A DNA stretch of 13,014 nt from Candidatus Bathyarchaeota archaeon (GTDB taxonomy: Archaea > Thermoproteota > Bathyarchaeia > 40CM-2-53-6), in contig VBBV01000063.1 in NCBI GenBank assembly GCA_005883695.1, forward strand, positions 1-13,014, read 5' to 3'. This document shows positions 1,487 through 8,482 of this stretch, in pieces (the stretch's first letter is position 1; each line of letters opens with the position of its first letter). Below the pieces are notes generated by a model, which had not been told where the DNA came from, made no database searches, and saw only the letters and a program-made list of their open reading frames with translations. Both the position numbers and the translations under genes were made by a program.

Positions 1487-1852
1487 ATGTCAGCGGGTTT
1501 TCGTTTCAAACAAGTGCTCGTTGTAAGATTGGATCTGGATATGGGACGGGGAAAGGCGGCGGTCCAGTGCGCTCATGCGGCAGTATCAGCCGCAGAAGAG
1601 GCTCGTAACCATTTGCATAGTTGGTGGAAGTCGTGGATCGACGAGGGCCAACTCAAGGTCGCTCTGAAAGTTCCTGATCTCGAAAGCGTCTTGGAGCTCG
1701 AGCGGAAGGGTAGGTCCAAAGGGATTCCTGTCCACCTCGTAAGAGATCGGGGGCTTACGCAGGTCCCTACAGGGACGATAACCTGTCTAGGCCTTGGTCC
1801 AGCCCCAGCGGACGTTGTCGACTCTCTAACTGGGAACTTGGCCCTTCTTTGA
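1487..1852 (+). CDS. pth2: Peptidyl-tRNA hydrolase, archaeal/eukaryal type (Pth2)
   Basis: Pth2 hydrolyses the ester bond of peptidyl-tRNAs released from stalled ribosomes and so recycles tRNA. The product from the ATG at 1487 is 121 aa, the usual length. It carries the active-site block DMGRGKAAVQCAHAA at about 18-32, the VRDRGLTQVPTGT segment at about 85-97, and the family ending GPAP..VD..TG.L.LL. An ATG 24 nt upstream (1463) would add GCYSAQV, which is not family-like and sits almost on the TATA-like element, so the inner ATG is preferred. The gene is divergent from the COG1325 gene. It overlaps the convergent gene at 1826-2203 by 27 nt at its 3' end. No sign of transfer or damage is visible. 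Confidence 0.95.
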   Translation: MSAGFRFKQVLVVRLDLDMGRGKAAVQCAHAAVSAAEEARNHLHSWWKSWIDEGQLKVALKVPDLESVLELERKGRSKGIPVHLVRDRGLTQVPTGTITCLGLGPAPADVVDSLTGNLALL

Positions 1853-2203
1853 CCTAAGGCCCTCTAATGGATCGCCATGTTTCGTCGACGTAATCTCGAA
1901 CCTGCGCTTTGCCTCGCGCACGTAATCTGTGAACTCCGAGTCTGGTGTCTCACGGAATGTTGAGCCTATTCTCTGAAACAGTTTCTTCAGGATCAGTCTC
2001 TCGATCACTCTTGATGCTCCGCCCAGCGCCTTTTTCAGTCCAGTCGCGAACTCATCGATCTTGTCGGGAATCTGTTCGCGATCCAGAGAATGAATTGTGG
2101 ATAGATATTGGTACACGGCTTGCCTGGGCTCATTTCCGAGAACGGATAGTCCCTCATCAACACACTCAAGAAGCACCTGGCTGAAAGATTGCGTTCTGCT
2201 CAA
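1826..2203 (-). CDS. Small helical archaeal protein, tentatively NitrOD5-like output domain
   Basis: This 125-aa protein is predicted to be mostly helical. The first 80 residues hold the pattern DEGLSVLGNEPRQAVYQYL, then REQIPDKIDEF, then GGASRVIERLILKKLFQRIG. I recall the same layout from short archaeal proteins, some of which are annotated as carrying the NitrOD5 domain, one of the archaeal signal output domains. That name is from memory and should be treated as tentative. The tail after about residue 105 is charged and probably disordered. The start is TTG, and it overlaps the stop of the 610-aa membrane protein gene as TTGA, which implies translational coupling and a shared role. Its 3' end overlaps that of pth2 by 27 nt. 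No enzymatic motif is visible. Confidence 0.72.
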   Translation of the reverse strand: MSRTQSFSQVLLECVDEGLSVLGNEPRQAVYQYLSTIHSLDREQIPDKIDEFATGLKKALGGASRVIERLILKKLFQRIGSTFRETPDSEFTDYVREAKRRFEITSTKHGDPLEGLRSKKGQVPS

Positions 2204-4032
2204 TTGGACACTCTTCCGTCTGACCCTTGGCTCTCGTCCTCGAAAGTCGGTCTCTTGCTCTCGAAGCCGGAATACCCAGTGTTCTGCGTGCGAACTATTT
2301 TGAACCCATCCATGTCGTACTTGGCTTGTGATCTGAAAAGACCTCTTACTCCATTCAGAGCCCTGTCGTCGAGAGCTGTGAAGTTGATCAACACTAATGT
2401 TGAAGCCGATTCTGACTCAGACATCTCCACGACGGATGATAGCACTCCATAGCCTTTTTCGAATCCCTGAAAAAGTATCAGATCGGTGAATACGTCGAAA
2501 ACCATCCCGACCAAACGGCCATGGTTCGCCTGTAGTAGTTTATCGACCGCGTCTAGGAGCAATGAAGTATCTCTCTCAGGTAAGAGGACAAGTTCTTCAG
2601 AGACCTTTGACGGAGTTGACGTTTTTGTGCTGAAGGTGAACATTCGCAGGTTGTGCTGCCCGCGAAACTGTCTAAATGTTGGACTGCCCATGCTGGTGAA
2701 TATCGCTATTGGCTCGACGTTTGCTTGGAATTCTTTAGCAAATTTCTGGACTGCATCTTCATAGTTGCTCGCTGGATCGTATTCCAGTAGGATTCTGTTC
2801 CTTGACAATGCTTGATGCTTAGTGTTCAGCAGCTTGGAGAAGCTGTCTTGCTGGAGGGCAAGGTCGCGTACTCGGGCCTTCGGGTTCGCTTCACGGAGGG
2901 CCTCTAGTGTACCTGATTGTGCCTCTTCGACGTTAAGAGCCCATATCCGCGGCCTCCGCCGAGGACCCGGAAGATTGTCGAGGGATTTGACCTTTGATAT
3001 TATGAGGTTGCATTGGTCTAGACTCAGTTCCCCAAGGTCAACGAGTTCTCTTTTGGACCGGTGGAAACCGGGAGGAACGGCCAGATCATTCAACGTCTCA
3101 CCTGCTCCAAAGTCAATGGACTGAATCGTCGTTTGTGGACCCCTCAGTCGTGCATGATCTGTCCCTGTTCCCTTTAGGATTGCCTTGTAGAAGGGGACTT
3201 CGGACTTAATAACGTAAAAGACCAGGTCCTGTCTCGTCGCGATTCCGTCGTCCATGAACCTTTCAACGAGCCGTTTCCTGTCAGACTCAGTGTTGTACAG
3301 CACTATCGTGTCTTCTTCCGTCCTCGAGCTTACTGCTTGGAAGATCATCTCGCCTCCAGTGACAATTCTACTCAGGATGGTAGGCTCCCTCAGAGCAAAG
3401 GATACCAGAACGAACAAGGTTCCGTCGGCTAAGCTGCCGAAACTCTTGACCAAACTGGCGTAGCTTCCTGCGAAGGCTTCTTGGAGGAAAGTGATGAGAC
3501 CGAAACATGCCCAGCATAGACTGATCAACCTAATTGAGCCCGACGCTTTTGGATCCTGTACTCGTCTTGACTGCTCGTAAAAGGAGAAGACAGGAAGAGC
3601 GATGAACGATGCTAAAAGCAGAGAGCTCGATGCTAGATACCAAGTTTGATAGGAAAAGTAGTAGATATACTCGCCATTGGTCATCAAACTATTCACGGTG
3701 AACGGTTGCCAAATCAGAGCCGTGGTAGCCCAGCCGATGGATATGAAAAGGAAAACGAGTAAAGCCTTCGGAGGCCTGTTCATGAACCTCGTGAACTCTG
3801 TGAATCCGCCCTTCCCTTCGCTCTCCTTCAGAAGGTAACTTGCTAAACCGATCGAAATAGCAGTCAAGGTGAGGAAGATGGTATCCAAGTAGGGACTGGG
3901 AGGCTTGTTCAGCAGGTCTGAGGCCGTCGTATCAGACAGAAACAGAATGAAGCCAACATTTGCCGCAGCAATGAAGAAGACTGAATCCAGAAAGTAGGTT
4001 TTCTTGGCTCGTATCGTAAAGACTAAGGCCAT
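2200..4032 (-). CDS. Six-TM membrane protein with degenerate RecA/DUF835-like cytoplasmic region
   Basis: This 610-aa protein is a candidate membrane-bound signal receiver; its ligand is unknown. Hydrophobic segments lie at about 14-33, 50-68, 89-108, 132-152, 168-187 and 199-214. A soluble part follows from about 235. Residues 240-345 (TIVLYNTESDRKRLVERFMDDG, then LVFYVIKSE) resemble the permuted RecA-like MEDS/DcmR sensory fold. Residues 410-582 resemble the DUF835/inactive KaiC-like fold: RILLEYDP, then IAIFTSMGSP, then a Walker-B-like strand GMVFDVFTDLI at about 509-519 and a following FEKGYGVL helix. No Walker A motif is present anywhere, so ATP hydrolysis is unlikely. The last 25 residues are polar. 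The gene follows a 56-bp gap with two palindromes and overlaps the downstream small gene by 4 nt. The domain names are by-eye resemblance; the membrane topology is more secure. Confidence 0.82.
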   Translation of the reverse strand: MALVFTIRAKKTYFLDSVFFIAAANVGFILFLSDTTASDLLNKPPSPYLDTIFLTLTAISIGLASYLLKESEGKGGFTEFTRFMNRPPKALLVFLFISIGWATTALIWQPFTVNSLMTNGEYIYYFSYQTWYLASSSLLLASFIALPVFSFYEQSRRVQDPKASGSIRLISLCWACFGLITFLQEAFAGSYASLVKSFGSLADGTLFVLVSFALREPTILSRIVTGGEMIFQAVSSRTEEDTIVLYNTESDRKRLVERFMDDGIATRQDLVFYVIKSEVPFYKAILKGTGTDHARLRGPQTTIQSIDFGAGETLNDLAVPPGFHRSKRELVDLGELSLDQCNLIISKVKSLDNLPGPRRRPRIWALNVEEAQSGTLEALREANPKARVRDLALQQDSFSKLLNTKHQALSRNRILLEYDPASNYEDAVQKFAKEFQANVEPIAIFTSMGSPTFRQFRGQHNLRMFTFSTKTSTPSKVSEELVLLPERDTSLLLDAVDKLLQANHGRLVGMVFDVFTDLILFQGFEKGYGVLSSVVEMSESESASTLVLINFTALDDRALNGVRGLFRSQAKYDMDGFKIVRTQNTGYSGFESKRPTFEDESQGSDGRVSN

Positions 4033-4038
4033 GCAAGA

Positions 4039-4068
4039 AGCGCTGAGCGCTAACAGATCCAGGATCTG
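4039..4068. promoter_or_regulatory. Twin palindromes in front of the membrane protein gene
   Basis: Two perfect inverted repeats with a single-base centre sit side by side: AGCGCT-g-AGCGCT at 4039-4051 and CAGATCC-a-GGATCTG at 4054-4068. They occupy most of the 56-bp gap between the AbrB-like gene and the membrane protein gene. A TATA-like AAAATTAG lies just upstream on the minus strand (about 4074-4082). The second palindrome therefore falls between the TATA box and the expected transcription start, which suits a repressor operator. A single-base loop argues for a DNA site rather than an RNA hairpin. Confidence 0.5.
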
Positions 4069-4088
4069 ATGGACTAATTTTCATCGCC

Positions 4089-4286
4089 TCACTCGTCTTT
4101 CGGCACGACCTCTTTCGGGGATTCGTCCTTCCTCATCTCGTAGACGAGTCTGACAGACTCTTGGTTCTCGTTCAGACTTAGTTGGAAGTGAGAAGACGCG
4201 GCTACGCCGAGGAGCCTTGCGATGTCCACGGGAATCAACAGGTAGAGGCTGTCTCTAAGCTTGACAGGCTTGACCTTAAGCGGCAC
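4089..4286 (-). CDS. AbrB/SpoVT-like swapped-hairpin mini-protein
   Basis: This 65-aa product has the swapped-hairpin beta-barrel signature of AbrB/MazE-type DNA-binding proteins. VKPVKLRDSLYLLIPVDIARLLGV at about 6-28 matches the usual K-x-G/R-x-S-x-x-x-x-I-P-x-x-I-x-x-x-L-x-I pattern, followed by a strand FQLSLNENQESVRLVYEM. The tail is charged. Such proteins bind DNA as dimers, often as local regulators or as antitoxins; no toxin gene is adjacent. The start is GTG, chosen because the domain begins immediately after it. It lies between the TackOD1 gene upstream and the membrane protein gene downstream, both on the same strand. It is a natural candidate to bind the palindromes at 4039-4068, but that is inference. 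Confidence 0.72.
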   Translation of the reverse strand: MPLKVKPVKLRDSLYLLIPVDIARLLGVAASSHFQLSLNENQESVRLVYEMRKDESPKEVVPKDE

Positions 4287-4299
4287 GACGATTCAACTT

Positions 4300-4317
4300 A
4301 GCCACCGCAAAGTGGCT
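4300..4317. repeat. Hairpin in the leader of the AbrB-like gene
   Basis: AGCCAC and GTGGCT form a 6-bp inverted repeat around a 6-nt loop, 14 nt upstream of the GTG start at 4286. It may be an operator or a leader hairpin. It is short enough to arise by chance. Confidence 0.3.
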
Positions 4318-4335
4318 GTTCGGCTTGAGATTGGC

Positions 4336-4363
4336 GTAACCCTACTAGTAGTGACTAGGTTAC
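4336..4363 (-). terminator. Inverted repeat at the 3' end of the TackOD1 gene
   Basis: GTAACC at 4336-4341 pairs with GGTTAC at 4358-4363. The stem extends by two more pairs if one bulged base is allowed. It overlaps the TAA stop of the TackOD1 gene, and a nested CTACTAGTAG palindrome lies inside at 4342-4351. There is no clear U-tract, so termination is only one possibility; mRNA end protection or a protein site is equally likely. Confidence 0.3.
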
Positions 4364-5370
4364 AATTGCAGGTCGTCTATTGACTCTTCGTTGCCGGACA
4401 GGCCCGTCCAACCGAAGTGTTCCTTTAGGAGGTCGGCCGCCTGCTGGGAGTCGCGTGCTTCGATCACGGAGATTCTGTATAACGCGGCCAGCCTCTTGGC
4501 TTTCCCAGTTAGCCCCGGGATCGCCACGAGAACCGTTTGAGTGGGACTTACGTCAAACACCTTAGCGTATAGAGATGCGATAGGTGTCTCCTCGATTTCA
4601 CGCTCACTTGCAATTACATCAAGCACAACCATCTCCGAGGAGCCCTTTGAGGCAATTGCGTCAAATCTGTGGAGGGCCCCGGAACGGCCGGCGACCTGAC
4701 CAGGCATCTCGACTTTGTACTGGAAATCTTCGAGAGTGGCACCGATCGGTTTCATGACTAGAAAGGTCCGCTTGAACTCTTCCTCAGCATCCGCGCTAAT
4801 ACGGTAGCTGTAGACGCTCACGAACCCAGTGTCTTTGATGGTGAAGATGTGCCCGCAACTTCTGCACCTGTGGATCGGACTTGGCAGGTCTGACCTTTTG
4901 CCACACTGAGAGCACTGAAACCAGGCTCCAAGCTTCTGGTAATCTACACCCGCTTCAATCAGCTCCTTGTTGCACTTCGGACAATACAAACCACCTTCGA
5001 CAAGAAAGTTATCCACGCTATCTATGGTCCCGCATTCTGTGTGTTCTAGGAGAGTCTTCCGTTCTATATCAATGGAGTTGCAATTGGGACAGACGTAGTC
5101 ATTGCTGACATTTGCGGACAAACAGCTGGGACAAACGAGGATCTTTTCATGGAATTTGCGTTTGAATATTCCCACGTCCCAAAGCTTCTCGACGAGCTGC
5201 TTCGCGGCGGTCGTATCACCATCAACGACCTCTTCCACCTCAGGATACCTGGCTGTTTGACTGAGATCAAAACTAGGTACGAGTTCTACGATTTCCCCTT
5301 TGACAAATCTACCTAGAAGAAGCTGAACACTCTGATCCTGGTATAGGGTAAGCCTATCTTTGGACGTCAT
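4360..5370 (-). CDS. TackOD1-type zinc-ribbon protein with nuclease-like C-terminal domain
   Basis: This 336-aa protein has three parts. Residues 1-75 have no clear family. Residues 80-175 hold a run of zinc-binding pairs: C80/C83 with C94/C97, H110/C113 with C130/C133, and C153/C156 with C169/C172 plus H174. This layout matches the thaumarchaeal output domain TackOD1 as I know it. Residues 222-315 resemble a PD-(D/E)XK restriction-endonuclease-like fold: SGALHRFDA, then MVVLDVIAS, an AKVFDV helix, LVAIPGLTGKAKRLAALYRISVIEA. The expected catalytic lysine after the DVI strand is absent, so nuclease activity is doubtful. The ATG at 5370 follows an AGGT motif by about 9 nt. The gene is divergent from a KaiC gene across 151 bp. 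The zinc clusters are certain; the domain names are resemblance. A role as a signalling output or nucleic-acid-binding effector is inference. Confidence 0.8.
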   Translation of the reverse strand: MTSKDRLTLYQDQSVQLLLGRFVKGEIVELVPSFDLSQTARYPEVEEVVDGDTTAAKQLVEKLWDVGIFKRKFHEKILVCPSCLSANVSNDYVCPNCNSIDIERKTLLEHTECGTIDSVDNFLVEGGLYCPKCNKELIEAGVDYQKLGAWFQCSQCGKRSDLPSPIHRCRSCGHIFTIKDTGFVSVYSYRISADAEEEFKRTFLVMKPIGATLEDFQYKVEMPGQVAGRSGALHRFDAIASKGSSEMVVLDVIASEREIEETPIASLYAKVFDVSPTQTVLVAIPGLTGKAKRLAALYRISVIEARDSQQAADLLKEHFGWTGLSGNEESIDDLQL

Positions 5371-5450
5371 TTCTATTGACCTAACCCCCGCGCAGGTTCC
5401 CTAGGTTATTCGTAGGCGAGACGCGTTTAGCTGGATATTCGGAAGTTGTA

Positions 5451-5488
5451 TCTTGTTCAAGACGTTGGACGTATCAGAACGCATATGG
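5451..5488 (+). promoter_or_regulatory. Candidate control region of the divergent TackOD1/KaiC pair
   Basis: The 151-bp gap between the divergent genes holds a 12-bp inverted repeat TCTTG-TT-CAAGA at 5451-5462 and a TATA-like GCATATGG at about 5481-5488. The latter is 37 nt before the KaiC ATG, which would leave a very short leader. No Shine-Dalgarno site precedes that ATG. A 5+2+5 repeat is expected about a dozen times by chance in a window this size, so it carries weight only from its position. Confidence 0.3.
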
Positions 5489-5521
5489 TTTGCGAGTCGG
5501 TTCAACCCGTTTTGAAGACTT

Positions 5522-6286
5522 ATGGCTGACGCTTCGGGCAACCCGAACGCTAGTTCTAGAACTCCTACCGGGATCCCGGGCCTGGACAAGTTGCTCACCG
5601 GAGGATTGCCCAAGAGCAGGATCATTCTGCTTTCCGGGGGACCTGGGACCGGCAAGACGATACTATCTTCGCAGTATCTCGTCAACGGAATATTGGACTA
5701 CGAAGAAAGCGGTGTCTACGTCAGTCTCGACGAAAACAAACAACACGTCTTCGAGGAAATGCTTGACTTTGGTTGGGACTTCGAGGACCTTGAGAACAAC
5801 AAGAAGCTGATATTCCTAGAAGCCTCTCCGATCAGATATCTTCCGGCCGAGATAAAGGTTGGAAAATTGACGGTTGGTCGAAAGGAGTTCTCTATGGCAA
5901 CGTTGATCGAGATGATTAAGACGAGTGTTCGGGAGATTGGGGCCAAGAGAATAGTTGTGGACCCGGTGACGACGTTGGTTTTTCAATACGAAGGAGTGGC
6001 AGCCCAAAGAAACGCCTTGGTCGAACTTATGGAGGCGCTAGCGGACACTGGCGCGACATGTTTGATTACAACTGAACTTCGAAGGCCTGGCTTCGAGAGG
6101 AGCCTCGACTACGAAGAATATCTAGCACACGGAGTCATACTTCTGCAACAATTGCAGGTTGGTAAGTCGCTACTGCGTGTAATCCAAGTTGAGAAAATGC
6201 GCAAAACTCCCTTGGACAACCAACCCAGGCCTTACCGAATAACTGATACTGGGATCGAAGTCTTTCCGCGCGAAAGCGTTCTATGA
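5522..6286 (+). CDS. Single-domain KaiC-family ATPase (first of three)
   Basis: This is a RecA-superfamily ATPase of the archaeal KaiC type, 254 aa, with one domain. It opens with the family entry TGIPGLDKLLTGGLP (16-30), then Walker A GGPGTGKT (39-46). Next come VYVSLDEN, where the two acidic residues of KaiC (EE) read Asp70-Glu71, and a Walker B strand RIVVD (143-147). It ends with the KaiC-like segment VEKMRKTPLDNQPRPYRITDTGIEV (223-247). All parts needed for ATP binding are present. Archaeal stand-alone KaiC proteins are widespread and mostly act in signalling; the specific role here is unknown. It is the only plus-strand gene of the island, divergent from the TackOD1 gene and ending 5 bp from the convergent winged-helix KaiC gene. 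The start is ATG without a clear Shine-Dalgarno site. Confidence 0.92.
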   Translation: MADASGNPNASSRTPTGIPGLDKLLTGGLPKSRIILLSGGPGTGKTILSSQYLVNGILDYEESGVYVSLDENKQHVFEEMLDFGWDFEDLENNKKLIFLEASPIRYLPAEIKVGKLTVGRKEFSMATLIEMIKTSVREIGAKRIVVDPVTTLVFQYEGVAAQRNALVELMEALADTGATCLITTELRRPGFERSLDYEEYLAHGVILLQQLQVGKSLLRVIQVEKMRKTPLDNQPRPYRITDTGIEVFPRESVL

Positions 6287-6291
6287 CCGGA

Positions 6292-7329
6292 CTAAACTGA
6301 CTTCTTCACGCGGGGTTCTTCATATGGAATTATCAGACCCATCGAGGGGTCTCGGTTGTACGGCGTCCACGTGGTTATGTGTTGAGCACCTTTCATTTTC
6401 GAGACCCTTATGAAACGCGCTAACCCATCCTTTGTGTCTTCCACCTTCATCTCAATTACGCCATCGACCTTGTCTTGTATTGCAGCGATAATGGCCGGAT
6501 GAAATGCTTTCCTCGAAAGTGAGGTTACGCAGCTAGCTCGATTGCTCCTTATCTTTGCAATCAGGGTGTGTAGAAAATCGAAGGAGGGCCTTACTCCGCT
6601 TCTTTGTATGAGAGTAGTTAGCGAGTCCATCGCGAGCATTACATTGCCGGAGTCGCGAGCTTCCGACAGGGCTTTTGTTACCACTATACTAAGGTCGGAT
6701 AAGCGTTGGGGATCCTCGCTGTACTGTTCTTGACTTCTTACGCCGACGAGGAACGAATAACAGTCTATAAACACGAGTTTTCTCCTGCCTTCAACTTCGT
6801 AGTCTCTCGGATTGACTCCCATTAGTTTCATGGACTCTCTGATGCTGTCCGGAAAATCGTCTAAGGCTGCGTAGACAACGTTTCTGCCCTTCTTCAAAGC
6901 TTCCGTAACAAGCTGAATCAGTAGGGTCGTTTTCCCTGTTGCGGGATCACCCATGACTAGTACCACGGATGACGAGGGATAGCCGTCGGGTAAGAGTGAG
7001 TCGACCATCCCCACTCCTGTCAGGTCTCTATTCGAAGAGGTTGATGTCTCTTCGAACGACCCCGCTGACACAAGTCGTTGCGAGATCTCCTTTTGCAATT
7101 CTTGATCTCTGTCTTTGCTGAAGGAGATAACTCGCACCTCTTGAAGTAAGCCCAGCTCGACGAGATCCGATACATCACGCTCGATTTCCTTTGGACTCCG
7201 CCGAATCTTATTGGCGATACCTTCTATCGTATCGGTGGAGTCGGGATTGTCATGGAAGTACATCAACAATTCGGCTTTTGTTTCGGACCCAATCAGCTTC
7301 TCAAGAAGGTCGCTCCTAAGAGGAGGCAT
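6292..7329 (-). CDS. Winged-helix/KaiC-family ATPase fusion
   Basis: The 345-aa product joins a DNA-binding-like head to a RecA/KaiC ATPase. Counting from the ATG at 7329, residues 5-70 form a winged-helix-like region (LLMYFHDNP, TIEGIANKIRRSPKEIERDVSDLVELGLLQEV). A linker of about 30 residues follows. The ATPase domain starts with GVGMVDSLLPDGYPSSSVVLVMGDPATGKTT, with Walker A at about 127-134. The acidic pair is Asp157-Asp158 (VYAALDD) and the Walker B strand is VMLAMDS at about 230-236. The C-terminal KaiC strand reads RVSKMKGAQH. A TTG at 7356 would add nine residues and cannot be excluded. It follows the second single-domain KaiC gene on the same strand across a 71-bp gap that holds a palindrome with flanking T-runs. 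An ATP-dependent DNA-binding regulator is a plausible role but not shown. Confidence 0.87.
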   Translation of the reverse strand: MPPLRSDLLEKLIGSETKAELLMYFHDNPDSTDTIEGIANKIRRSPKEIERDVSDLVELGLLQEVRVISFSKDRDQELQKEISQRLVSAGSFEETSTSSNRDLTGVGMVDSLLPDGYPSSSVVLVMGDPATGKTTLLIQLVTEALKKGRNVVYAALDDFPDSIRESMKLMGVNPRDYEVEGRRKLVFIDCYSFLVGVRSQEQYSEDPQRLSDLSIVVTKALSEARDSGNVMLAMDSLTTLIQRSGVRPSFDFLHTLIAKIRSNRASCVTSLSRKAFHPAIIAAIQDKVDGVIEMKVEDTKDGLARFIRVSKMKGAQHITTWTPYNRDPSMGLIIPYEEPRVKKSV

Positions 7330-7360
7330 TATACTGTCCGCGACCTTTTCAGGCAAGACA

Positions 7361-7397
7361 ACAAAAAACGCTGCAGCAATGATTGCTAATTTTTTTC
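7361..7397. terminator. Palindrome with T-runs on both sides
   Basis: AGCAAT-g-ATTGCT (7375-7387) is a perfect 6+1+6 inverted repeat. On the plus strand it is followed by AATTTTTTT, and on the minus strand by GCAGCGTTTTTTG. Archaeal termination depends mainly on U-rich tracts, so on the minus strand this could end the KaiC transcript that stops at 7401. The A/T-rich part near 7388-7394 could equally be the TATA region of the next gene, with the palindrome as its operator. Confidence 0.45.
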
Positions 7398-7400
7398 CGC

Positions 7401-8141
7401 TTATCGTATCTTGTCGGGGGGAATCGGGGTTGGAGCTAGGGAGAATCCGTCTCTTGTTATGTAGTAGTCATATCCTTCTAGCCTGTGTTCGGTCCCTCTC
7501 ATCTTGGGAATGTAGACTCTTCGGCGAACCCTCGAGTTGTCAAAACTTGCATCCAAAATTACGAGACCGTCACCTAGAAACTCTTCGAAGTTGGTCCCAA
7601 GCTGTTGCTTTCCCCAAGGGACCTCGCTTATCATCAGCGTTGTGCAGTTCGCAGCCTCTAGGAATTTCACCATTATGTGAAGGAAGCTTCGGGCTTCGGC
7701 ATTACTCTCGAAGGCTGTCATGAGTGCGGAGAGAGAATCGAATACTAGCCTCTTTGCATTCATAGTGTGCAATGCCTCCAGAACCGTTTCAAGAGCCGTA
7801 CTAACTCCAGCTTTCATAGTAGATTGAAGAGAGACGAGGCGCAGTTTGTTTTCTGATTCGAGTCGGTTAAGGTCCCATCCGAACCTCAAACCGTTCCGTT
7901 TCAGCTTCTCACCGCTCTCTATGACAGACGCGTAAACGCCGTTTTCCCCGCATCGGGTGGCTCCATGGTACAGGAATTGCAATCCTAGGGTAGTCTTGCC
8001 GGTTCCCGGCTGGCCAGCAACAATAATGCAGTCGCCCCGTCGAAGCCCGCCTTCTATTATCTTGTCCAGACTAGGGACCCCGGTAGGGACTCGATCGTCT
8101 GGCTCTTGGATACTTGGGGCGATTGCCCGTCTAACTTCCAT
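7401..8141 (-). CDS. Single-domain KaiC-family ATPase (third of three)
   Basis: This is a 246-aa RecA-superfamily ATPase of the KaiC type. Counting from the ATG at 8141, the entry TGVPSLDKIIEGGLRRGD (20-37) leads to Walker A GQPGTGKTT (43-51). The acidic pair of KaiC is altered: VYASVIES has Ile before a single Glu at 75. The Walker B strand RLVFDS is at about 131-136, and the C-terminal PKMRGTEH matches the KaiC KMRGT motif. The start is well fixed: the ATG overlaps the stop of the upstream winged-helix gene as TAATG and is preceded by a strong GGAGGAG site. An upstream TTG at 8162 is rejected for that reason. It is probably co-expressed with the winged-helix gene and works with it; the substrate is unknown. 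Confidence 0.92.
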   Translation of the reverse strand: MEVRRAIAPSIQEPDDRVPTGVPSLDKIIEGGLRRGDCIIVAGQPGTGKTTLGLQFLYHGATRCGENGVYASVIESGEKLKRNGLRFGWDLNRLESENKLRLVSLQSTMKAGVSTALETVLEALHTMNAKRLVFDSLSALMTAFESNAEARSFLHIMVKFLEAANCTTLMISEVPWGKQQLGTNFEEFLGDGLVILDASFDNSRVRRRVYIPKMRGTEHRLEGYDYYITRDGFSLAPTPIPPDKIR

Positions 8142-8404
8142 TACTGCTCCTCCAACGACCAAAGCTTGACCGGTCCCACTTGTCGAAAGGCGACCTTCTT
8201 TTTTGCGCGAAGAACGTGCAAATATTTCGACGCTGTAGATCTATTCACTCTTAGATCCTTTGCGATTTCGCTGATTGAGCTGTTTGGCTTGTCGCCCAAT
8301 GAACTAATTATCCGTTCTTCAATGACCTCCAGCAACGTGCCATTCGAGGAATCGTTGATGTTCAACAATGACTTCCGAGTCAAATCAGCACTATTGCTAA
8401 TCAT
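8141..8404 (-). CDS. Small winged-helix DNA-binding protein
   Basis: This 87-aa protein consists almost wholly of a winged helix-turn-helix. Residues 24-38 form a first helix (LEVIEERIISSLGDK). The HTH follows at about 43-66 (SISEIAKDLRVNRSTASKYLHVLRAK), and a wing KVAFRQVGPVKLWSL fills the C-terminus. The arrangement is typical of ArsR/MarR-like archaeal regulators, with no extra ligand-binding domain. The stop codon overlaps the ATG of the following KaiC gene (TAATG), so the two are translationally coupled and probably act together, for example as DNA-binding and ATPase subunits of one regulator. The ATG at 8404 is about 51 nt from the A/T-rich element shared with the divergent IPK gene. 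The DNA target is unknown. Confidence 0.85.
   Translation of the reverse strand: MISNSADLTRKSLLNINDSSNGTLLEVIEERIISSLGDKPNSSISEIAKDLRVNRSTASKYLHVLRAKKKVAFRQVGPVKLWSLEEQ
8147..8153 (-). promoter_or_regulatory. Strong Shine-Dalgarno site fixing the KaiC start
   Basis: GGAGGAG on the minus strand ends 5 nt before the ATG at 8141 and lies within the last codons of the upstream winged-helix gene. It supports translational re-initiation at the TAATG overlap. It is the best match to the anti-Shine-Dalgarno sequence that I saw in the island. Confidence 0.8.
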
Positions 8405-8449
8405 AAGTCGGGTGTTACCCTCGAACCATCATCAAAGTCACCCCGAAGC

Positions 8450-8460
8450 CGCTAAAAGCA
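8450..8460. promoter_or_regulatory. Shared TATA-like element between winged-helix gene and IPK gene
   Basis: CGCTAAAAGCA is the main A/T-rich stretch in the gap between these divergent genes. It lies about 28 nt before the IPK ATG at 8483, so that mRNA would be nearly leaderless. It lies about 51 nt before the winged-helix ATG at 8404, leaving a leader of roughly 25 nt. It is judged by eye and is a weak match to consensus. Confidence 0.4.
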
Positions 8461-8482
8461 AGCTTTGCCCGGAATGCAGCGA

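Follow-up and report, generated by a model that had tools for sequence, protein, structure and literature searches.

A KaiC gene set with a predicted membrane receptor in soil Bathyarchaeia and its possible link to the type IV pilus

KaiC-like ATPases reportedly serve as hubs of signal transduction in archaea. In this view, said to come from Makarova, Galperin and Koonin (mBio, 2017), expanded KaiC families, inactivated KaiC domains, DEATH-like adapters and other outputs are proposed to make up a network outside the two-component systems (TCS). The KaiC set analysed here bears on how archaea poor in two-component proteins, or lacking them, perceive their environment; it is an island of eight genes at positions 1826-8404 of a 13,014-nucleotide stretch (the window) of contig VBBV01000063.1 (assembly GCA_005883695.1, Candidatus Bathyarchaeota archaeon). 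Its hosts are soil archaea of the class Bathyarchaeia. Three sources describe related systems: archaeal type IV pilus (T4P) loci hold KaiC-DEATH pairs and the double-zinc-ribbon protein arCOG06883 (PMC4858521), which is TackOD1 (PMC5847659); NitrOD5 is placed in an archaeal death-domain-like family (PMC5847659); and motility and shape of Haloferax are influenced by CirA, a KaiC homologue (PMC13286277).

All eight open reading frames (ORFs) are present, consecutive and in the order given by the initial annotation (Table 1). They encode three KaiC ATPases (kaiC1, wHkaiC2 and kaiC3), a membrane protein (mem610), a small helical protein (small125), a winged-helix protein (wH87), an AbrB-like mini-protein (abrB65) and the zinc protein TackOD1. 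We posit that they form a receptor-KaiC-adapter-regulator signalling set with membrane input, likely regulating the type IV pilus, and assign this reading a probability of roughly 0.5. The core of this reading is the grouping of receptor, KaiC and adapter, and it is supported because the three also lie side by side in other families.

The candidate receptor, mem610, had been described as a six-transmembrane (six-TM) protein with one inactive RecA-like tail. The six-TM part and the loss of ATPase function stand, with Walker A missing from 30/30 orthologous rows, but the single tail is rejected, as both the AlphaFold2 model (mean predicted local distance difference test score, pLDDT, 73.6) and the closest structural matches (Foldseek/VIA), which are double-domain KaiC proteins, give two domains. 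A simple hydropathy cut recovers only 4 segments in the six-TM region, and structure searches, which hardly tested either this region or the TackOD1 zinc part, returned no known fold for them. In the Pfam search mem610 itself has no MEDS (PF14417) or DUF835 (PF05763) match; its homologue in locus L153 matches MEDS at 58.1 bits (cut-off 29.8) and DUF835 at 22.4 bits, under the cut-off of 33.1. An hhalign comparison of profiles A2 and A10 (probability 100 over 573 columns) supports a possible link of the receptor to MEDS/DUF835-type domains.

The small protein joined to mem610 by TTGA (2203-2200), a junction already noted, can be refined on profile evidence to a predicted NitrOD5/DEATH-like adapter. 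No PF11537 match is found for small125 itself at E up to 1; in the wider family A8, 5/16 members match (best 3.1e-6), and the family profile finds PDB 2p9x (PH0832) at E 6e-4. Across 300 genomes of the phylum PF11537 matches in 26, over the cut-off in 3, and a KaiC match lies beside or within the NitrOD5-like gene in 7/30 loci from this search. Locus L239 (7097-8875) holds a single frame with a weak NitrOD5-like and a KaiC match, a natural adapter-ATPase fusion.

The second dead-KaiC domain of mem610 was sought in 256 genomes of the class, with matches in 55 (21 from the family of the window), and in a further 300 genomes of the phylum, where 22 match. Twenty regions were fetched from the non-family matches, hand-picked and mostly from the top of the list. 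A kaiC3-type KaiC lies close to the receptor in 14/20, and receptor, KaiC and NitrOD5-like adapter occur together in 10/20 (L149, L153, L154, L156, L159, L161, L162, L164, L165 and L166), so that these genes do meet elsewhere, in other families. The arrangement varies: the adapter gene adjoins KaiC instead of following the receptor in L161, L165 and L166, the receptor is on the opposite strand in L165, and the KaiC frame is broken in L162. KaiC stands without an adapter in four loci (L151, L155, L160 and L163), two of which, L151 and L155, reach a contig edge just after the receptor. Five fetched loci carry the dead-KaiC domain fused to a receiver domain, and in 3/5 (L280, from a further genus of the same family, L282 and L285) a kaiC1-type KaiC adjoins this form or is transcribed divergently from it. 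The domain thus takes membrane or two-component input, and the island holds the membrane form only.

Two further observations concern receptor genes of this type. A GH3-like protein of 540-544 aa (acyl-adenylate type) is encoded between KaiC and receptor in L163 (the place of L248) and in L237, the latter from another class; it is a possible maker of the signal. Receptor paralogues within the family (L107, L109, L110, L112, L114, L116 and L117; L108, L111 and L113) show no KaiC match; next to them are either genes of the succinate dehydrogenase/fumarate reductase type, recognised in L109, or a TFB gene, recognised in L112.

The three KaiC-family ATPases match PF06745 at 219 (kaiC1), 94 (wHkaiC2) and 187 bits (kaiC3), well above the cut-off of 26.6, in agreement with the initial annotation. 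The active KaiCs of the island are single-domain, and Walker A is intact in their orthologues (18/18 for kaiC1, 6/6 for kaiC3 and 6/6 for wHkaiC2, in complete rows above 60% identity). The proposed fusion of one KaiC to a winged helix is borne out as far as an extra N-terminal part goes, but its winged-helix call is weak (HVO_A0114, 18.6 bits, under the cut-off). The separate winged-helix gene wH87 is indeed coupled to kaiC3 by TAATG (8143-8139), and its product matches HTH_5 at 22.6 bits (cut-off 22). Outside the family, wH87 has a weak match (5e-9) in L047 alone among the scanned loci, no genome-wide search having been made.

Operon KaiCs of other families group with kaiC3, not with kaiC1 (moderate tree support, 87/89), which suggests that the cognate KaiC of the receptor is likely kaiC3; kaiC1, a candidate from adjacency, is disfavoured on the same grounds. 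The fine placement of the KaiCs is unsure because the tool flagged long branches in the tree. Within the island kaiC3 and small125 are not adjacent; in homologous operons KaiC lies beside the DEATH-like gene. For wHkaiC2, a homologue 42% identical is found in genome G311 of another class, and homologues adjoin a KaiC as well as a NitrOD5-like gene in L229 (of another class), a NitrOD5-like gene in L323 and kaiC1 (E 4e-94) in L324. In L231-L235, kaiC1-type genes (E 1e-65 to 1e-71) adjoin proteins of 344 to 1375 aa with a C-terminal KaiC-like domain, among them one with a winged helix (L231) and one with a weak SNAP-like match (L232).

The eight-gene set is real and kept together within one Bathyarchaeia family. 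In a sample of 37 family loci, where some genomes are counted twice (once from each search), all eight genes occur in order in 9; 27 stop at a locus or contig end inside the set or ahead of it, and L034 holds half of it only, from kaiC1 to small125. A second genus (L040) has all eight genes with the membrane gene in two pieces. In another genus (G021) the set is split between two contigs, kaiC1-tackOD1-abrB65-mem610-small125 beside pth2 and a proteasome gene, and wHkaiC2-kaiC3-wH87 beside the isopentenyl phosphate kinase gene (ipk). Identity across the family loci is 86 to 98% for kaiC1 and falls to 41% for mem610. As had been described, the island lies between housekeeping genes, with proteasome alpha, an RNA-binding protein and Pth2 on one flank and isopentenyl phosphate kinase, polyprenyl synthase, L15e and malic enzyme on the other. 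Since it keeps this fixed place, a mobile element is disfavoured. The full island is found in 0/57 TackOD1 loci hand-chosen from other families, and its presence across the class is not supported.

Might the island be no pathway at all, its abundant KaiC and DNA-binding genes having come together by chance and stayed so through synteny with housekeeping genes in one family? Its restriction to that family, the break in G021 and the 23 to 29 PF06745 matches per genome (7/7 genomes searched) are what such a cluster would leave; these counts include RecA relatives, because the profile gives matches in 14/14 control genomes. A rough Poisson estimate, assuming 27 matches per 2.2 Mb, puts the chance of three KaiC genes in 6.6 kb at ~8e-5. 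The parts recur in other families and in another class in different arrangements, and both halves survive the break in G021, so we regard a chance cluster as unlikely.

A link to the type IV pilus is suggested by the neighbours of TackOD1 and of KaiC genes. Across the class, TackOD1 shares a stretch with the T2SSE pilus ATPase in 41/57 of the loci from other families, at distances of 0.6 to 7.7 kb and in four arrangements, the pilus cluster consisting of the ATPase, two T2SSF proteins and pilins; several of the 16 loci without a pilus ATPase stop at contig edges. In L241 and L243 a pilus ATPase is 2 to 4 kb away from a NitrOD5-KaiC pair, and in L149 one is 3 kb away from the receptor operon. 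The family itself encodes an orthologous pilus ATPase elsewhere in its genomes (matches in 16/21, 12 of them nearly full length), with two KaiC-type genes just before it in 6/8 fetched loci and, in L101, L103 and L104 (3/8), a kaiC1 relative (E about 1e-106) plus one or two wHkaiC2-like genes beside the pilus cluster. By association, the regulated process is probably the type IV pilus. Beside the pilus cluster in L103 (12891-19499), and in part in L101 and L104, KaiC genes are also interleaved with a CruF-like carotenoid gene (L103 and L104) and a UbiA gene (L101 and L103); in L103 the last gene is of the YjeF type.

In the mechanism that we propose, mem610 would sense a signal at or in the membrane, and its dead KaiC-like domains would bind to, or become part of, a ring of active KaiC3 and so alter its ATP state. 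The NitrOD5/DEATH-like small125 would read this state as an adapter, in place of the cyanobacterial KaiB, and wH87, the winged-helix-KaiC fusion, the AbrB-like protein and TackOD1 would carry the result to transcription, with the pilus of these cells as the presumed regulated process. Membrane input would thereby be used where relatives use two-component input, and cell-surface behaviour may be governed by a chain that dispenses with the usual two-component proteins. A pathway from membrane to ATPase to DNA had been suggested before; receptor, KaiC and adapter do belong together, but the end on DNA is suggested by winged-helix and AbrB-like resemblance. The set names a receptor, a likely cognate KaiC (kaiC3) and an adapter, and the idea of a KaiC hub therefore becomes testable with three proteins.

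Several observations weigh against this reading. The window holds no pilus gene anywhere, for which reason the pilus is named as target by association. Outside the family, KaiC occurs in 2/57 and NitrOD5-like genes in 3/57 TackOD1 loci, and the KaiC-TackOD1 linkage is therefore family-specific. Neither KaiC nor adapter is found in 6/20 receptor-type loci (L150, L152, L157, L158, L167 and L168), three of which (L157, L158 and L167) stop just upstream of the receptor gene. KaiC is likewise missing beside the receptor gene of G311 (L230), near the receiver-fused form in 2/5 loci (L281 and L283) and around the receptor paralogues of the family, which sit among other genes, and wHkaiC2 occurs without other island parts in L321 and L322. 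The chance figures, finally, overstate independence, because KaiC genes are abundant and linked loci share ancestry.

The promoter regions bear on another process. The divergent regions 5371-5521 and 8405-8464 contain the conserved non-coding blocks GTATCAGAA and GGTAACAC; footprint alignments of 12 and 13 loci gave conserved blocks and no nameable operator. As the 60-bp promoter region is common to wH87 and isopentenyl phosphate kinase, whose neighbour is the polyprenyl synthase, the set could regulate isoprenoid or membrane-lipid supply. The conserved block in this divergent gap is consistent with such a role, as are the fact that ipk and the synthase remain neighbours of wH87-kaiC3-wHkaiC2 in the split island too, and the kaiC1 relative near the pilus locus that lies between the CruF-like and UbiA genes (L103). 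Among the loci read, however, the ipk link is confined to one family, and receptor-KaiC operons elsewhere lie among varied genes; we consider regulation of lipid supply improbable.

No histidine kinase (HisKA) or receiver domain was found in the eight island proteins (for wHkaiC2, among the best 25 of 33 families), as the initial annotation had stated. Of the 21 family genomes, 13 have a receiver-domain match (1 to 4 each) and 11 a HisKA match (1 to 2 each). Three genomes of 94-95% completeness (G006, G013 and G015) have neither, and hold 25 to 29 PF06745 matches, RecA relatives included. KaiB was found in 0/21 family genomes, most of them incomplete; the control gave matches in 6/14 genomes, S. 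elongatus among them, and over the cut-off in 1. The absence of KaiB and of two-component proteins is provisional because these metagenome-assembled genomes (MAGs) are incomplete. That the island is self-contained, as had been claimed for it, is not supported. In G021 each half has housekeeping neighbours of its own; elsewhere TackOD1 is part of type IV pilus neighbourhoods, as is the AbrB-like protein in one locus; and in relatives the KaiC1 type and the same dead-KaiC domain are used with receiver domains.

KaiB also matters for a reading in which the KaiC proteins oscillate as a timer, the DEATH-like protein replaces KaiB and the receptor entrains the rhythm. PMC4858521 suggests such a replacement by DEATH in a possible archaeal oscillator, and both the dead double-KaiC fold and the missing KaiB would suit it. 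The same lack of KaiB, together with the single-domain form of the active KaiCs, speaks against oscillation, and we hold a timer to be quite improbable.

TackOD1, correctly named a zinc protein of this type before, matches PF18551 at 124.5 bits (cut-off 32), with a mean pLDDT of 89.1 for its model. The domain is nearly class-wide (195/256 genomes, 178 over the cut-off), and 17/18 loci from a TackOD1 search that places the window in soil Bathyarchaeia are in MAGs labelled Bathyarchaeota, Crenarchaeota or archaeon, the 18th being a weak bacterial match. Cysteines 80, 83, 94, 97, 113, 130, 133, 153, 156 and 169 and His 110 are invariant in 43 rows, and C172 is kept in 90% or more. In L061 and L062 TackOD1 is directly followed by a NitrOD5-like gene. 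The Bathyarchaeia TackOD1 proteins carry a PD-(D/E)XK-like C-terminal domain whose lysine has possibly moved (K270). That TackOD1 is a nucleic-acid enzyme of zinc ribbons plus this domain, with the KaiC set serving DNA processing, is very improbable: its C-terminal fold resembles AF1548 and EndoMS in a structure search, and D237 (37/43 rows), D251 (39/43), K270 and D273 (both 43/43) are conserved, but the usual (D/E)xK place is without lysine and TackOD1 keeps a pilus neighbourhood in those 41 loci.

The AbrB-like call for abrB65 is suggested by a PDB profile match, and in Pfam no family passes the cut-off: family profile A4 finds 7xi6 (C56) at E 8.6e-5 and the AbrB structure 7d2n at E 0.17. 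Homologues occur in 23/256 class genomes, 20 of these in the family. The AbrB-like gene lies two genes before a kaiC3 relative (E 7e-82) in L316 and directly beside a pilus ATPase and two pilins in L317; L318 and L320 show neither arrangement next to it. Further AbrB-like mini-proteins of the family (L272, L273 and L275-L278) are encoded upstream of small membrane-protein genes.

Table 1. Positions of the island genes, their domains and the two divergent intergenic regions in the window.
Feature	Position	Strand	Description
small125	1826..2203	-	Predicted NitrOD5/DEATH-like helical adapter; TTG start overlaps stop of preceding gene (TTGA)
mem610	2200..4032	-	Six-TM protein with two ATPase-dead KaiC-like domains
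Six-TM region of mem610	3388..3981	-	Residues 18-215; long helices in model
First KaiC-like (MEDS-like) domain of mem610	2863..3315	-	Residues about 240-390; from model, homologue L153 and hhalign
Second KaiC-like (DUF835/DUF7504-like) domain of mem610	2275..2844	-	Residues 397-586
abrB65	4089..4286	-	AbrB-like mini-protein; PDB profile match
TackOD1 protein	4360..5370	-	Zinc domain (residues 12-191) and C-terminal PD-(D/E)XK-like domain
C-terminal domain of TackOD1	4408..4773	-	Residues 200-321; PD-(D/E)XK-like fold
kaiC1/tackOD1 divergent intergenic region	5371..5521	.	151 bp; conserved blocks in 12-locus alignment
kaiC1	5522..6286	+	KaiC ATPase; transcribed away from tackOD1
wHkaiC2	6292..7356	-	N-terminal winged-helix-like part fused to KaiC
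kaiC3	7401..8141	-	KaiC ATPase; likely ATG start at 8141 (TAATG); frame open to TTG at 8162
wH87	8141..8404	-	87-aa winged-helix protein coupled to kaiC3; HTH_5
wH87/isopentenyl phosphate kinase divergent region	8405..8464	.	60 bp; conserved GGTAACAC block, 13-locus alignment

Compared with the KaiC-hub network of Makarova, Galperin and Koonin (2017), the island likewise has KaiC, dead KaiC domains and a predicted DEATH-like adapter, and may add an explicit receptor-KaiC-adapter operon in several families as well as the eight-gene set. It resembles the cyanobacterial KaiABC clock in its KaiC fold and in having a possible reader of the KaiC state, whereas here no KaiB was found, the active KaiCs are single-domain and the membrane partner is a dead double-domain protein. 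The literature searched, whose scope did not take in the 2017 mBio paper and whose sources were partly accessible, yielded no receptor-KaiC-adapter operon. As far as these texts go, single links of the chain have already been predicted in print, and the membrane-receptor operon and the eight-gene set are new variants.

The remaining comparisons refer to two of these sources. In the KaiC-DEATH pair of archaeal T4P subclade 4B (PMC4858521) a KaiC gene adjoins one for a DEATH-like helical protein and is linked to pili, as in some operons homologous to our set; here there is additionally a six-TM protein bearing two dead KaiC domains, and the set in the window lies away from pilus genes. Common to the TackOD1/NitrOD5 output domains (PMC5847659) and the island are the PF18551 zinc protein (in thaumarchaeal pilus loci, arCOG06883) and, as predicted for small125, a small stand-alone NitrOD5-like protein, but in the island there is no receiver domain, and TackOD1 has a PD-(D/E)XK-like C-terminal domain and lies beside KaiC. 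The REC-MEDS and REC-DUF835 response regulators (iKaiC outputs; PMC5847659) contain dead-KaiC domains that are probably related, with a receiver domain where the island has six-TM membrane input. More tentatively, the set may exemplify a third class of archaeal transmembrane signalling besides two-component systems and Ser/Thr kinases, in which a dead-KaiC receptor would gate an active KaiC ring with a DEATH-like readout and six-TM and receiver inputs would be exchangeable.

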